Below, piece by piece: positions 13,569-18,030 of a stretch of 21,619 nt of DNA. Position numbers and translations under genes: made by a program. Each line of letters begins with the position of its first letter. Position 1 is the first letter of the stretch. The notes beneath the pieces were generated by a model. It was given only the letters and a program-made list of their open reading frames with translations. It ran no database searches and had not been told where the DNA came from. This stretch comes from a virus, in IMG/VR virus record IMGVR_UViG_3300047373_000244, positions 1-21,619 of that record. One strand, 5' to 3'.

Positions 13569-14594
13569 ATGGAAATAAATAGCGACACACATTTTTCAAT
13601 AGTACCAAGTGATGGTGCAATGACCGTAGACGGTAAAGGCATGGGGGGTATAGACTTCTCTTCAGCCGGTATACCTGCGGATGTAAACGCATTACAATGG
13701 GAAGATGGTCAAGGCGAACTAGAGTATCTAGATGCCAGAAATAACCCTAATACAATTCTTAATGAGGTTCCAGAATGGGCACATAAGTGTGTGGAGTTAT
13801 TTGTTGCAGCAATACAAGCAGAATTAGATGAGGATGTTAGACTAGCAAAATTGCGCTTAGGCACAGCTAGCCCAGACCCTAAAATAACTGAAATCATGGA
13901 TGCGTATCCTACTATAAACTACGAGGACGCAAATAAATTAATACTTATGTTCAGCTCTAAAGATTTAGAATTAGAGATAGTAAGTGGGACATTTATGTAT
14001 GATGAAGTAACTCAAATGGATACTCCATACAGACCTGTTGGAATAGCTATTACACAGTTGACCGGTAATGGGGCATTAATAGTTAGCAAACTTACTCAAT
14101 TAACTGAGGCGGCAGCTTTAGTTGCTATCCCCATTCTCTCAACTCCTTTCGCTGATAACGCTCAACTAAGACAACTAAACGAACAATTAGGTCAATCAGC
14201 ATATGATTACACTTACGCTGAAACAGAATATACGCTTTATTATCCTGAATGGACTCTAGAAAAAGATAAACTTAAAAAAGGCAGAGACATTGATACAGAA
14301 AGATCGGTAGAGTTACTACAAGGTTTTGAGTACGAAGGAAAAATGTATGATGCGGGGCCTACTAGTAGAACTAATCTAGCTGATTATATGACTCTAGTTA
14401 ATGCAGGTGTTGATTTACCTGGAGGCTTTACATGGCGCGCTTCAGATAATACTAGTACAGGTTTTGATAATACGACACTTAAAGACTTTGCCAATGCAAT
14501 GTTTACCTTTATGAATGATACATATATTAAATCATGGAATAGGAAAGCAACATTACCTAATGCAAAAACAATTAAAGATGTTCGGGCGGTTTAA
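13569..14594 (+). CDS. Tail protein with DUF4376-like C-terminus (341 aa)
   Basis: The N-terminus (FSIVPSDGAMTVDGKGMGGIDFSSAGIPADVNALQW) is a common marine phage fibre start. The C-terminal ~90 residues (FEYEGKMYDAGPTSRTNLADYM...LPGGFTWRASDNTSTGF...WNRKATLP) match the DUF4376 pattern found at the tips of phage fibres. The middle contains two mostly helical sections. It is probably a tail fibre or fibre-assembly protein. Its end overlaps the start of the first desaturase by 17 bases, linking the structural and metabolic parts in one transcript. Confidence 0.7.
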   Translation: MEINSDTHFSIVPSDGAMTVDGKGMGGIDFSSAGIPADVNALQWEDGQGELEYLDARNNPNTILNEVPEWAHKCVELFVAAIQAELDEDVRLAKLRLGTASPDPKITEIMDAYPTINYEDANKLILMFSSKDLELEIVSGTFMYDEVTQMDTPYRPVGIAITQLTGNGALIVSKLTQLTEAAALVAIPILSTPFADNAQLRQLNEQLGQSAYDYTYAETEYTLYYPEWTLEKDKLKKGRDIDTERSVELLQGFEYEGKMYDAGPTSRTNLADYMTLVNAGVDLPGGFTWRASDNTSTGFDNTTLKDFANAMFTFMNDTYIKSWNRKATLPNAKTIKDVRAV

Positions 14595-15402
14595 CTTAAG
14601 TAATAATTTTAAAATAAAAGTAGTACAGGCATTTGCATATCTAGGAGCGGTAGCTACTTTAATATTTTGGTGGGACACAACCTTATTTATTCTTGCAATG
14701 ATTTGGGGTTGGCTTCTTACAGGCTTTGGCTCTAGCATGGGGCTACACAAAATGTCTGCTCACCGGTCTTTCAAACCAAAAAATAGATTTATAAAGATAT
14801 TTCTTTTATTCATGGGGACTATTGTTTCTATGGGTAGCACTATATATTGGTGTGATACTCACAGACTACACCACGGCACTTCAGACTCTGACAAAGACCC
14901 TCACCCACCTAGAGGCTCTCTATGGAATAAAATAAAGATATGGTTCTATTACTTTAAGCCCTATAAAATTGAGCCAATGAGAGTAAAAGATTTAATAGCT
15001 GATAAAGACCATATGTGGTTTCATAAGAATTATTATAAGATAGTTATTGGGTGGATTGTCTTACTCGGATTAATAGACTTAAAGATAGCCGCTTATTTCT
15101 ATTGTGTCAGCATGCTCTATGTATTCTTTGGAATTAGTTATATAACAGTAATAGCACATATTCCTAAACTAGCTGTCAGAGGTTATAGGTTATTTAACTC
15201 AACTGATTATACATACAACAGCCACTTTTTTGCGTGGTTACTGTGGGGCGAAGGATATCACAATACTCATCATAACAACCCTAAACTTTATAATTTAGCA
15301 CTACTTCCTGATGAGTTTGACTACTCAGCTAAAGTTATAGAGACCATAGGAATCCCCTGCGAGCAGAAACCTAAAAAGTTTGATACAATAGTAAGACTCT
15401 AA
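14578..15402 (+). CDS. Membrane fatty-acid desaturase I (274 aa)
   Basis: An integral-membrane di-iron desaturase that inserts a double bond into an acyl chain (probably delta-9 type) using O2 and an electron donor. The three histidine boxes are present in order: HKMSAH (H57, H62), HRLHH (H95, H98, H99) and HNTHH (H228, H231, H232). Hydrophobic segments near residues 15-55, 73-90 and 155-195 give the usual two membrane hairpins. GLHKMSAHRSFK and GEGYHNTHHNNP are typical of acyl-CoA/acyl-lipid desaturases. The length is near that of bacterial DesC types. The start at 14578 lies within the previous gene and has no clear SD, implying translational coupling; an earlier in-frame ATG at 14515 is less likely. 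Desaturases are known in cyanophages. The substrate (ACP, CoA or lipid) is not proven. Confidence 0.9.
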   Translation: MFGRFNLSNNFKIKVVQAFAYLGAVATLIFWWDTTLFILAMIWGWLLTGFGSSMGLHKMSAHRSFKPKNRFIKIFLLFMGTIVSMGSTIYWCDTHRLHHGTSDSDKDPHPPRGSLWNKIKIWFYYFKPYKIEPMRVKDLIADKDHMWFHKNYYKIVIGWIVLLGLIDLKIAAYFYCVSMLYVFFGISYITVIAHIPKLAVRGYRLFNSTDYTYNSHFFAWLLWGEGYHNTHHNNPKLYNLALLPDEFDYSAKVIETIGIPCEQKPKKFDTIVRL

Positions 15403-15422
15403 AAACTTATGAAAGGAATGTA

Positions 15423-15653
15423 ATGAACGTAAAGGATACGGTACTTAAAATTATATCTGCCGAAACAAAAACACCACTAAAAGAAATAGATTTAAAAGCT
15501 GACATACGGGACATGGGTATAGATTCTCTAGCCACAGTAGAAATAGTTGTAGCAATAGAAGAACAGCTAGGTATTGAAATCCCTGAAGATAGTGTCAACG
15601 AGATTATAGTCATTGAGGATATTATAGAGACATGCCAAAACTTGCACTCATAA
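15423..15653 (+). CDS. Acyl carrier protein (76 aa)
   Basis: A small acidic four-helix carrier. The phosphopantetheine site is GIDSLATVEI with Ser35, followed by the recognition helix (VAIEEQLGIEIPEDS). The length equals that of fatty-acid ACPs. It must be loaded by a host 4'-phosphopantetheinyl transferase, as none is seen here. AAAGGA at 15412-15416 is a good SD. The 3' end overlaps the second desaturase by 22 bases. Sandwiched between two desaturases, it most likely presents acyl chains to them, or diverts host fatty-acid synthase products. A role as an unrelated peptidyl carrier is less likely because no synthetase is present. Confidence 0.93.
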   Translation: MNVKDTVLKIISAETKTPLKEIDLKADIRDMGIDSLATVEIVVAIEEQLGIEIPEDSVNEIIVIEDIIETCQNLHS

Positions 15654-16432
15654 ACCACAGAATCCTCTGGGTTCTTGTACACACTGCCGCTATTCTTTCA
15701 ATAGTGTTAGCAATATTTTATGGATATGGGTGGTGGTTATTAGCTGCGTTTTTAATATCTAGAGTATGGGTAATAGGTGGTATGAGTATGGGACTGCACC
15801 GTTATTTCTCTCACAGAAGTTTTAAGACTACTCCATTTAAACACAAAATAATATTATTCTTAAGTGTAATGGCAGCTCAGGGTAGTCCTTTAGGTTGGGC
15901 TACAGTGCACAGACATCACCATAAACATTCTGACCGAGAGTTTGATGTGCATTCACCAAAAGACGGTGCGTGGCATGGGGCACTATGGATGTTAGGCAAC
16001 CCTCAAAAATGGAAAAAAAAGTTAGGTATGAAGTTCTCCACTGTTGATTTACTTAAAGATAAAACAGTCGTATTTGTTGAGAAATATTATTATGTTTTCT
16101 GGGCTGTTTTAATTGCAGTTAGTTTCCTTATTGATTGGAAGATAGGATTGTTCCTAGTATTAGCACCCCCAGGATTAGGTTATATGCTGGATATGTACTT
16201 TGTTAACTATCTTACTCATACTCCACTCTTACCTAAAGGGTATAGAAACTTTGATTCAAACGACACAACTTGGAATTATAACTGGGTTATATGGTTAGGT
16301 ATACCTGATGGGTTACACCACAATCATCACACAGAACCTTGGAAAACAAACGCAGCTATTAAGAAAGGAGAGTACGACATTACCGGTTGGATTATTGACA
16401 ATTGGTTTGCAAAAAATGTTAAGTCTACTTAA
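15632..16432 (+). CDS. Membrane fatty-acid desaturase II (266 aa)
   Basis: A second three-box di-iron desaturase: HRYFSH (H56, H61), HRHHH (H93, H96, H97) and HHNHH (H229, H232, H233). Boxes one and two (GLHRYFSHRSFKT, WATVHRHHHKHSD) are of the classical acyl-CoA/acyl-lipid delta-9 type. Hydrophobic segments lie at residues ~12-50, ~72-85, ~155-175 and ~172-195. It is clearly related in architecture to the desaturase 230 bases upstream but diverged in sequence, so the two may act at different positions or on different substrates. It overlaps the ACP gene by 22 bases and the cupin gene by 17 bases. The electron donor is presumably host ferredoxin or rubredoxin. Confidence 0.92.
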   Translation: MPKLALINHRILWVLVHTAAILSIVLAIFYGYGWWLLAAFLISRVWVIGGMSMGLHRYFSHRSFKTTPFKHKIILFLSVMAAQGSPLGWATVHRHHHKHSDREFDVHSPKDGAWHGALWMLGNPQKWKKKLGMKFSTVDLLKDKTVVFVEKYYYVFWAVLIAVSFLIDWKIGLFLVLAPPGLGYMLDMYFVNYLTHTPLLPKGYRNFDSNDTTWNYNWVIWLGIPDGLHHNHHTEPWKTNAAIKKGEYDITGWIIDNWFAKNVKST

Positions 16433-16928
16433 AAAGAAATTTATAAAGATAAGATACTACCCTTTTATTGCAGCTAAGGGGCCTATAGATACTTTAGAAG
16501 TAAAGAGATACTACTTATGGTTTTGCCATCGCGTGTTTATAAATGTCATGAGAAAGGGAGATGATGCCTTGCATGACCATCCATGGAACTATGTATCTAT
16601 AATACTTTGGGGTGGGTATAAAGAAACCACTATTGATAAAGATACAGAAAAGTTAGTTACAAAGAAATATGGTCCAGGGTCTATTATATCTCGTCCTCAC
16701 ACAGCATTCCATAAATTAGAAATACTTAAGTCTAAGTCTATTAGTTTGTTCTTTGTATCTAAAATAAAAGTAGAAAAAGATTGGTGTCAAAGTTGGGTTG
16801 TTAATGATAAGATACTGAATTCTTTAGATTACCAATTACATTTATGTAAAACTCCAAAACAAAAGAGAGAGCTGGTAAAAATATACAGAGATGCTAGAGA
16901 TGATGTGATGGAAGGAGAGAGGGTATGA
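16416..16928 (+). CDS. Small cupin-type metalloprotein (170 aa)
   Basis: A single-domain cupin. ALHDHPWNYVSIILWGGYKE carries H53 and H55, and PGSIISRPHTAFHKLEI carries H95 and H99, the usual metal-ligand arrangement of the beta barrel. HDHPW cupins are known in other phages, with no established substrate. The start at 16416 is chosen because the earlier in-frame ATG at 16308 lies deep in the desaturase gene; there is no clear SD, so translation is probably coupled. Co-occurrence with four other metal-oxygen enzymes suggests an isomerase or oxygenase step on a lipid or sugar, but this is inference. Confidence 0.7.
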   Translation: MLSLLKKKFIKIRYYPFIAAKGPIDTLEVKRYYLWFCHRVFINVMRKGDDALHDHPWNYVSIILWGGYKETTIDKDTEKLVTKKYGPGSIISRPHTAFHKLEILKSKSISLFFVSKIKVEKDWCQSWVVNDKILNSLDYQLHLCKTPKQKRELVKIYRDARDDVMEGERV

Positions 16929-17455
16929 TACAGTTTGATAGATTAGATACTATAACTCATGATTGTGCAGAAGTCTGGAATATAACTGGAGTATGTAATA
17001 AACGTATAGCTGAAGAAACAATGAAATTTGTAGGGCAGGTTCTCAATCCAGATAGTAGAACTACTAGAAGTGAAGATTCTGTTCTTGACATTTCCGCTTC
17101 TGCCACTAGAGAATTATTTGACGAGATTGAAAAAGTTTTAGACCGTAGAAATTTACAGCGAATACCCAATCAATATTGGGGACAAATTCACAGGCAATAT
17201 GAATCAACAGAAATGCATGAGCATACTCCTTGGGACGTTGGATGGGTATATTATGTTAGGGTTCCTGAAGATAGTGGGTTATTAGTATTTACACAGTTTC
17301 AAGGATGGACTAATAAATATGAGCATACACATTATCCTAAAGCAGGTCAGCTTGTACTATTCCCTGGATGGATGATACATAGAGTAACTAAAAACTTTAA
17401 CACAATTCCTAGAATAAGTATTTCAGGAAATGCAAATTATATAGAGAGGAAATAA
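16925..17455 (+). CDS. 2OG-Fe(II) oxygenase-like protein A (176 aa)
   Basis: The double-stranded beta-helix pattern is visible: QIHRQYESTEMHEHTPWDVGWVYYVRVPEDSG, then PKAGQLVLFPGWMIHRV, then RISISGN. H98 or H100 with D104 and distal H152 are candidate iron ligands, and R163 is a candidate 2-oxoglutarate binder. The overall order matches the small phage 2OG-Fe(II) oxygenase group (TIGR02466/PF13759 type), common in marine phages near fibre genes. It overlaps the cupin stop by ATGA and has AAGGAG at 16912-16917. The substrate could be a protein residue, lipid or nucleobase; none can be read from the sequence. Confidence 0.75.
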   Translation: MIQFDRLDTITHDCAEVWNITGVCNKRIAEETMKFVGQVLNPDSRTTRSEDSVLDISASATRELFDEIEKVLDRRNLQRIPNQYWGQIHRQYESTEMHEHTPWDVGWVYYVRVPEDSGLLVFTQFQGWTNKYEHTHYPKAGQLVLFPGWMIHRVTKNFNTIPRISISGNANYIERK

Positions 17456-18030
17456 TGAGTATACCAAATTTTATAGAAGTATATCCTACGTTTGATAAAG
17501 AGTTTTGTGACTATGCAATCAAATGTTTTGACGAAGCAGACAGTCATGGGTTGTGTAAATCTAGGCAAGAGAAACAAGATATTAGTAGTATGTTAATAGA
17601 CGATAGTTCAGTTCATTTTCCGGTTTATGATTTTCCAATAGCTCACCTGACAGCCTCTCTGGTAGAACAATTTGATGCAGGGTTTGATGAGGCTCAACAG
17701 AAATACTATGCTAAATATGGGCAGTTGCAAGAAGTAGGAGCCTTAAGATACTACGAAGCCAAACTACAAAAGACTCATCCAGGACAGGGGTACCATACTT
17801 GGCATTGCGAAGCAGGGGGACGAGAATTTCAAACAAGAGTATTAACTTGGACTGTGTATTTAAATGATGACTTTGATGCGGGAGAAACAGAGTTCTTATA
17901 CCAGCAATACAGATACAAACCAAAGATGGGGGATTTAGTTATCTTCCCCGCAGCATTTACTCACTCTCATAGGGGCAATTCACCTATAGGTGGGGTCAAG
18001 TATATTATCACAGGATGGCTAGAGTTCTAG
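17455..18030 (+). CDS. 2OG-Fe(II) oxygenase, prolyl-hydroxylase-like (191 aa)
   Basis: Clear P4H-type signature: YHTWHCE (H117, E119) within a beta-helix, VYLNDDFDAGETEFL, KMGDLVIFPAAFTHSHRGNSP (distal H172, or H170), and VKYIITGW with K182 as the 2-oxoglutarate anchor. A Glu rather than Asp in the HxD/E motif is allowed in the family. The N-terminus (FIEVYPTFDKEFCDYAIK) is the typical start of this group. It is coupled by TAATG to the other oxygenase. Such phage enzymes are widespread in marine myo- and podoviruses; targets are unknown. Hydroxylation of Pro/Lys-rich virion proteins or of acyl chains are both open. Confidence 0.82.
   Translation: MSIPNFIEVYPTFDKEFCDYAIKCFDEADSHGLCKSRQEKQDISSMLIDDSSVHFPVYDFPIAHLTASLVEQFDAGFDEAQQKYYAKYGQLQEVGALRYYEAKLQKTHPGQGYHTWHCEAGGREFQTRVLTWTVYLNDDFDAGETEFLYQQYRYKPKMGDLVIFPAAFTHSHRGNSPIGGVKYIITGWLEF

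Follow-up and report, generated by a model that had tools for sequence, protein, structure and literature searches.

The viral DNA studied here, from a phage of marine type, carries a cassette of three genes in which two different membrane fatty acid desaturases (DES1 and DES2) flank an acyl carrier protein (ACP). We propose that the cassette desaturates carrier-bound fatty acids as a transferable phage unit, in which an ACP of the FAS-II type is charged by the host and the desaturases act in series; we put the probability of this reading at roughly one half. While infecting, the phage probably uses its own carrier to produce an unsaturated fatty acid of a kind peculiar to it. Phage desaturases have so far been read as simple membrane-fluidity genes. 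The ACP between the desaturases, the movement of the block between unrelated phages and the 4'-phosphopantetheinyl transferases (PPTases) in larger arrays point to a carrier-bound pathway that would redirect the host acyl pool. Whether integral-membrane desaturases act on acyl-ACP outside JamB-type clusters can be tested with this cassette, and it also suggests phage lipids, or compounds derived from lipids, not yet sought.

Gene organization of the cassette

The window, that is the whole stretch analysed, is the virus fragment IMGVR_UViG_3300047373_000244 of IMG/VR (21,619 bases). PHROG and other matches place virion genes in this record, including tail, tail-spike and SU10-type adaptor genes. 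The genes of the cassette and its neighbours are listed in Table 1; the Pfam matches of DES1, ACP and DES2 were all above the curated cut-offs. The earlier note had described two diverged three-histidine-box desaturases around a complete GIDSL-type ACP, and the Pfam matches, the histidine boxes, Ser35 of the ACP and an identity of about 33% between DES1 and DES2 bear this description out. Its overlapping reading frames are found at three of the four junctions: the upstream DUF4376 gene overlaps DES1 by 17 nt, ACP overlaps DES2, and DES2 overlaps the cupin-like gene by 17 nt. In the window a 20-nt gap separates DES1 from ACP.

Table 1. Features of the cassette region in the window, and coordinates of a larger cluster in three other viral contigs.
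Feature	Position	Strand	Match or remark
Cys-rich protein (g13277), 96 aa	13277..13567	+	travels with cassette; 48-70% identity in backbones otherwise little alike
DUF4376 / tail-fibre-like gene (g13569)	13569..14594	+	PF14301 1.3e-14; PHROG virion/tail families
DES1, integral-membrane fatty acid desaturase, 274 aa	14578..15402	+	PF00487 7.8e-18
DES1 histidine boxes HKMSAH, HRLHH, HNTHH	14746-14763, 14860-14874, 15259-15273	+	
ACP, 76 aa, FAS-II type	15423..15653	+	PF00550 4.1e-14; serine codon 15525-15527
ACP/DES2 reading-frame overlap, 22 nt	15632..15653	+	length equal in relatives
DES2, second membrane desaturase, 266 aa	15632..16432	+	PF00487 2.5e-14
DES2 histidine boxes HRYFSH, HRHHH, HHNHH	15797-15814, 15908-15922, 16316-16330	+	
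Cupin-like protein (PHROG 'cysteine dioxygenase')	16416..16928	+	phrog_4786 3.6e-17; variable downstream module
2OG-Fe(II) oxygenase	16925..17455	+	PF13759 8.2e-11; phrog_81; variable downstream module
2OG-Fe(II) oxygenase	17455..18030	+	PF13640 1.6e-11; phrog_61 4.9e-39; variable downstream module
Cluster in L064, L077 and L089	L064 681-10508; L077 987-8392; L089 2052-9464		

The DUF4376 gene is the constant upstream neighbour and accompanies the cassette in three backbones. Downstream, the oxygenase/cupin module differs among relatives. In the window it consists of the cupin and two 2OG-Fe(II) oxygenase genes (16416-18030); in relatives other oxygenases substitute, and the cupin-like gene is present, duplicated or absent. 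In one contig (L013) a phage lysozyme gene follows downstream of the cassette region.

The constant position right after a tail-fibre-like gene that overlaps DES1, in a region of structural genes, would suit a special acyl chain that the cassette makes for attachment to a protein of the tail or fibre. We consider such acylation of virion proteins very improbable. No acyltransferase gene was recognised nearby, and conservation is good in the cassette but poor in its partner tail gene (25-38%).

The acyl carrier protein

The phosphopantetheine serine of the ACP, Ser35, lies within the GIDSL motif, and the serine of DSL is invariant in 9 ACP orthologues. With this serine and a domain above the cut-off, the product is classed as a PF00550 acyl carrier protein, for which conversion to the holo form and acylation are predicted. 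Its identity is 30% to E. coli AcpP and 14-20% to four cluster ACPs, and phmmer favours AcpP. All of the 18 phage ACPs compared scored higher against FAS-II AcpP than against the four ACPs of JamB-type clusters. Being AcpP-like and not JamC-like, the phage ACPs fit loading by host FAS-II.

Sequence, fold and phylogeny of DES1 and DES2

Both desaturases keep all nine metal-ligand His residues of the SCD1 type (in DES1 H57, H62, H95, H98, H99, H194, H228, H231 and H232), which are invariant or nearly so among the 40-45 viral desaturases aligned. The SCD-like Asn four residues before the sixth ligand His is N192 in DES2; T190 stands there in DES1. The AlphaFold models had pLDDT values of 91.5 (DES1) and 92.7 (DES2). 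Foldseek matched them to mouse SCD1 with E-values of 1.6e-9 and 6.3e-9, respectively, and SCD structures were the sole matches with E < 0.001 for either model. The fold is common to the phage proteins and SCD1 (4YMK, 4ZYO, 6WF2), with TM scores of 0.71-0.75 by query length, although the identity is 19-27%. By their PF00487 matches and the SCD fold of the models, DES1 and DES2 are assigned to the membrane fatty acid desaturase superfamily, and their activity is predicted.

In SCD1, Arg155 and Asp156 hold the adenosine of CoA (PMC9825965). At these two positions DES1 has D/T and DES2 has T/V. Since the adenosine contacts are not kept, acyl-CoA is not favoured as the substrate. Stand-alone cellular desaturase relatives likewise have no such pair, so the missing contacts do not separate acyl-ACP from acyl-lipid.

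DES1 and DES2 are found in different parts of the desaturase tree, DES2 within an all-viral clade. Recent tandem duplication of one desaturase was rejected on these separate positions. In AU tests on a balanced 25-row desaturase set, a single clade of DES1 and DES2 was not significantly rejected (p 0.08), so the two may share an older origin. Two genome-contig scans with narrow peptide patterns gave no match to a cellular source of the cassette; plasmid-borne relatives and SCD1 made up the cellular comparison.

Conservation and transfer of the cassette

Protein-guided scans of viral contigs yielded nine further contigs spanning the cassette and two edge fragments (L002 and L009). Several of the spanning IMG/VR contigs are near-duplicates, and about six distinct variants are represented. 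No contig spanning the cassette departs from the order DES1-ACP-DES2, and the ACP/DES2 overlap is 22 nt in every relative readable there. Scattered, unlinked genes in relatives, which the earlier note had named as the outcome that would speak against a phage cassette, were not found when the gene order was checked in these viral contigs. In L011 and L012 a third desaturase stands directly after the cassette, giving three in total in L012.

The dN/dS values were 0.04-0.13 for DES1, 0.07-0.25 for ACP and 0.05-0.21 for DES2. All three genes are under purifying selection, the ACP evolving faster than both desaturases. The orthologues, the invariant active sites and these dN/dS values rule out degeneration or chance ORFs.

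One relative, G005, has a backbone of the window type, with 76% identity in the adaptor and 63% in a structural protein; its DES1, ACP and DES2 are 86, 71 and 78% identical to those of the window. Another, G003, differs in its backbone and encodes a portal and a major head protein of its own. When it was compared with the window genes upstream of g12172, the adaptor alone matched (27%), and the window's downstream structural genes had no match in it. The identities of g13277, g13569, DES1, ACP and DES2 to the window are nevertheless 70, 38, 82, 57 and 77% in G003, and they are 48, 25, 69, 42 and 60% in the L012 contig. Such identities, despite the unlike backbone of G003, indicate that the block passed as a whole from one phage lineage to another. 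From these sequence comparisons, the cassette is a real, conserved and transferable phage unit. The order kept in relatives, the block common to unrelated backbones and the virion genes in the record thus agree with the earlier description of a desaturase-ACP-desaturase unit carried by a phage.

Desaturases and ACPs in other viral contigs

We scored 49 viral contigs reached via the DES2 profile, and the counts are hence not prevalences. PF00487 genes above the cut-off numbered at least two in 41 of the 49, at least three in 21, at least five in 9 and ten in one. A PF00550 ACP above the cut-off was present in 25 of the 49; about half of these desaturase-bearing contigs, many of them fragments, thus have no ACP. 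Among 18 contigs not belonging to the window family, 10 have the ACP no more than 500 nt from a desaturase, where 1.8 would be expected from position (P 8e-7, an optimistic value, because the arrays of G019, G028 and, probably, G020 are related). A PPTase (PF01648) above the cut-off was found in 8/49 contigs, all of them ACP-bearing (P 0.002 for the co-occurrence; 0.0004 without the window family), and by coordinates each has a desaturase no farther away than about 2.2 kb. PPTases were seen in other phages alone and are absent from the window cassette.

A common cluster in L064, L077 and L089 (Table 1) contains an ACP, a PPTase, a type III PKS-like synthase, an SDR, TauD, a 2OG oxygenase and 3-7 desaturases, and is predicted to be a self-contained lipid or polyketide-like pathway. 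Its PPTase is of the AcpS type, and the best PDB match of the PKS-like synthase was Pks11 (2e-29). The L064 and L077 contigs carry a terminase as viral marker. In L046 (122-9135), L074 (3-9135) and L047 (1822-6785) the fetched stretches hold an ACP and arrays of 5-9 desaturases, and the whole contigs have seven to ten PF00487 genes and a PPTase each. The L046 contig has T4-like structural genes, with baseplate wedge and head protease as viral markers, and two weak rubrerythrin-like proteins.

Other arrangements were also seen. In a 355-kb viral contig (L055, 3903-5768) an opposite-strand ACP lies between two desaturases and overlaps one of them, with a PPTase directly after. In L075 (2397-7661) a radical SAM/B12-binding protein is encoded beside five desaturase genes that overlap or abut one another; this contig, with eight PF00487 genes in all, also encodes a virion protein, an endolysin and ribonucleotide reductase. 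In a 228-kb viral contig (L056, 4027-10663) five tandem desaturases are followed by membrane genes that look TRAP-transporter-like by eye. The cultured SAR11 phage Pelagibacter phage Mosig EXVC030M (L016, 5372-6648) has a lone short desaturase of 216 aa beside an Asp/Arg hydroxylase-type gene, and may possibly serve as a tractable model. Two matches in Acinetobacter phage MD-2021a were left out because their neighbours look bacterial (btuB, baeRS); at L128 of this phage the desaturase surroundings resemble a bacterial chromosome (btuB, ydiU, baeRS), and the record is probably mislabelled as a phage.

Judged from these contigs, phage desaturase/ACP clusters form a wider set, and the cassette of the window is its smallest member. 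Tentatively, many phage lineages might encode a carrier-tethered fatty-acid tailoring pathway, composed of a dedicated ACP, 2-10 membrane desaturases acting on the chain it carries and in some cases a PPTase and a type III PKS-like synthase, with polyunsaturated or acetylenic, phage-specific acyl chains as products and the window cassette as its smallest version.

The many viral desaturase contigs without an ACP would suit ordinary auxiliary metabolism for membrane fluidity, in which acyl-lipid type desaturases act on phospholipid acyl chains, while the ACP has the separate role of raising fatty acid synthesis in the host. Acyl-lipid or acyl-CoA are the usual substrates of membrane desaturases (PMC9825965), and fluidity or auxiliary metabolism is the published reading for acpP-bearing roseophages (PMC8224337) and, in the accessible text, for phages carrying as many as five desaturase genes (PMC7300359). 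Still, this leaves unexplained the tight placement of the ACP between the desaturases, the joint movement of all three genes and the PPTases in or near desaturase arrays, and seven to ten different desaturases seem too many for fluidity. We regard it as rather unlikely.

Proposed pathway

Under the carrier-bound model, the phage ACP would be converted to its holo form by a host 4'-phosphopantetheinyl transferase and loaded by host FAS-II enzymes or by acyl-ACP exchange; host loading is inferred because no phage ligase is present. DES1 and DES2 would then set double bonds at differing positions of the chain on the phage ACP, and late in infection the product would enter membrane lipid (or lipid A) through host acyltransferases. 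With the ACP, little enzyme would suffice to divert the host acyl pool toward a phage-chosen acyl chain.

The fixed order with its 22-nt overlap, the block transfer, the dN/dS values, the nearness of ACPs, and in some contigs PPTases, to desaturases, the lost CoA contacts, the AcpP-like ACP and the missing AMP-binding ligase all argue for this model; binding of the desaturases to the ACP would have to be assumed, which counts against it. While the gene content, integrity, selection, linkage and transfer are read directly from the contigs, acyl-ACP specificity, substrate, product and fate are predicted. The earlier suggestion that the phage makes unsaturated acyl-ACP stands as the best-supported mechanism, with its substrate and product conjectural, and the present data do not distinguish between the membrane remodelling, lysis and virion lipidation proposed with it.

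No electron donor, thioesterase or acyltransferase was recognised accompanying the cassette; these absences, the faster evolution of the ACP, the many desaturase contigs lacking an ACP and the fact that acyl-lipid desaturases would lose the CoA contacts as well also weigh against the model. A PF00501 AMP-binding ligase was found neither in the window nor in its 11 closest contigs, which are fragments; it was above the cut-off in two of the 49 wider contigs, neither belonging to the cassette family. The search for rubredoxin (PF00301) in viral contigs other than the window gave none in the close contigs and one among 47 viral contigs, and its positive control was detected.

Comparison with known systems

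Cyanophage lipid desaturases are not known to come with an ACP partner. Like those of the window, they are reportedly phage-encoded membrane desaturases (Roitman et al. 2018); however, no close sequence relationship was seen, as no cyanophage record in INPHARED matched DES1 or DES2 (tblastn, E 1e-5).

According to the accessible text of two reports, two Arctic cryopeg brine phages of 222-230 kb have five desaturases each, under purifying selection and with 4ZYO-like models (PMC7300359; PMC10405475), and low-level transcription of these genes was later found (PMC10405475). Compared by description, several PF00487 genes per phage are found there as here (two in the window, three in L012 and up to ten elsewhere). 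That text names no ACP or PPTase and explains the desaturases by membrane fluidity. The Roseobacter prophage fabG-acpP-fabF (PMC8224337) also represents a phage-carried ACP of the FAS-II type, but it is a host-like fab operon for which adjoining desaturases were not reported. We found no report of phage desaturases linked to an ACP or PPTase in the open-licence literature searched. This linkage appears to be undescribed so far in phages, while multi-desaturase phages have been published (PMC7300359, PMC10405475). The earlier note knew of no other phage unit of this kind, but the unit does not stand alone: larger arrays of desaturases accompanied by an ACP occur in many phages.

In the jamABC terminal-alkyne/polyyne clusters (PMC8406139), one to three desaturases of the same superfamily stand beside a dedicated ACP, as in the phage unit. 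The layout was seen in Streptomyces goshikiensis (L116), Polaromonas (L117) and others. Since desaturases and an ACP form the core of the bacterial polyyne cluster, repeated ACP-bound desaturation, possibly acetylenic, might lead in phages to a polyunsaturated or polyyne-like small molecule; the three desaturases of L012 and the PPTase, PKS-like synthase, SDR and oxygenases added in L064, L077 and L089 would suit such a natural-product-like pathway. For the window we think it improbable. The cassette has no fatty acyl-AMP ligase (JamA), its ACP is not JamC-like, and no rubredoxin, in the close contigs searched, or recognised thioesterase lies beside it. Placement of the desaturases in the JamB clade was rejected for both DES2 (AU p 1.1e-5) and DES1 (0.0015). 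On these grounds membership in the jamABC/polyyne family was rejected. Returning to carrier-bound desaturation by a host-charged ACP, the jamABC/polyyne cassette is its nearest working analogue, and the phage unit may, by analogy, work partly alike.
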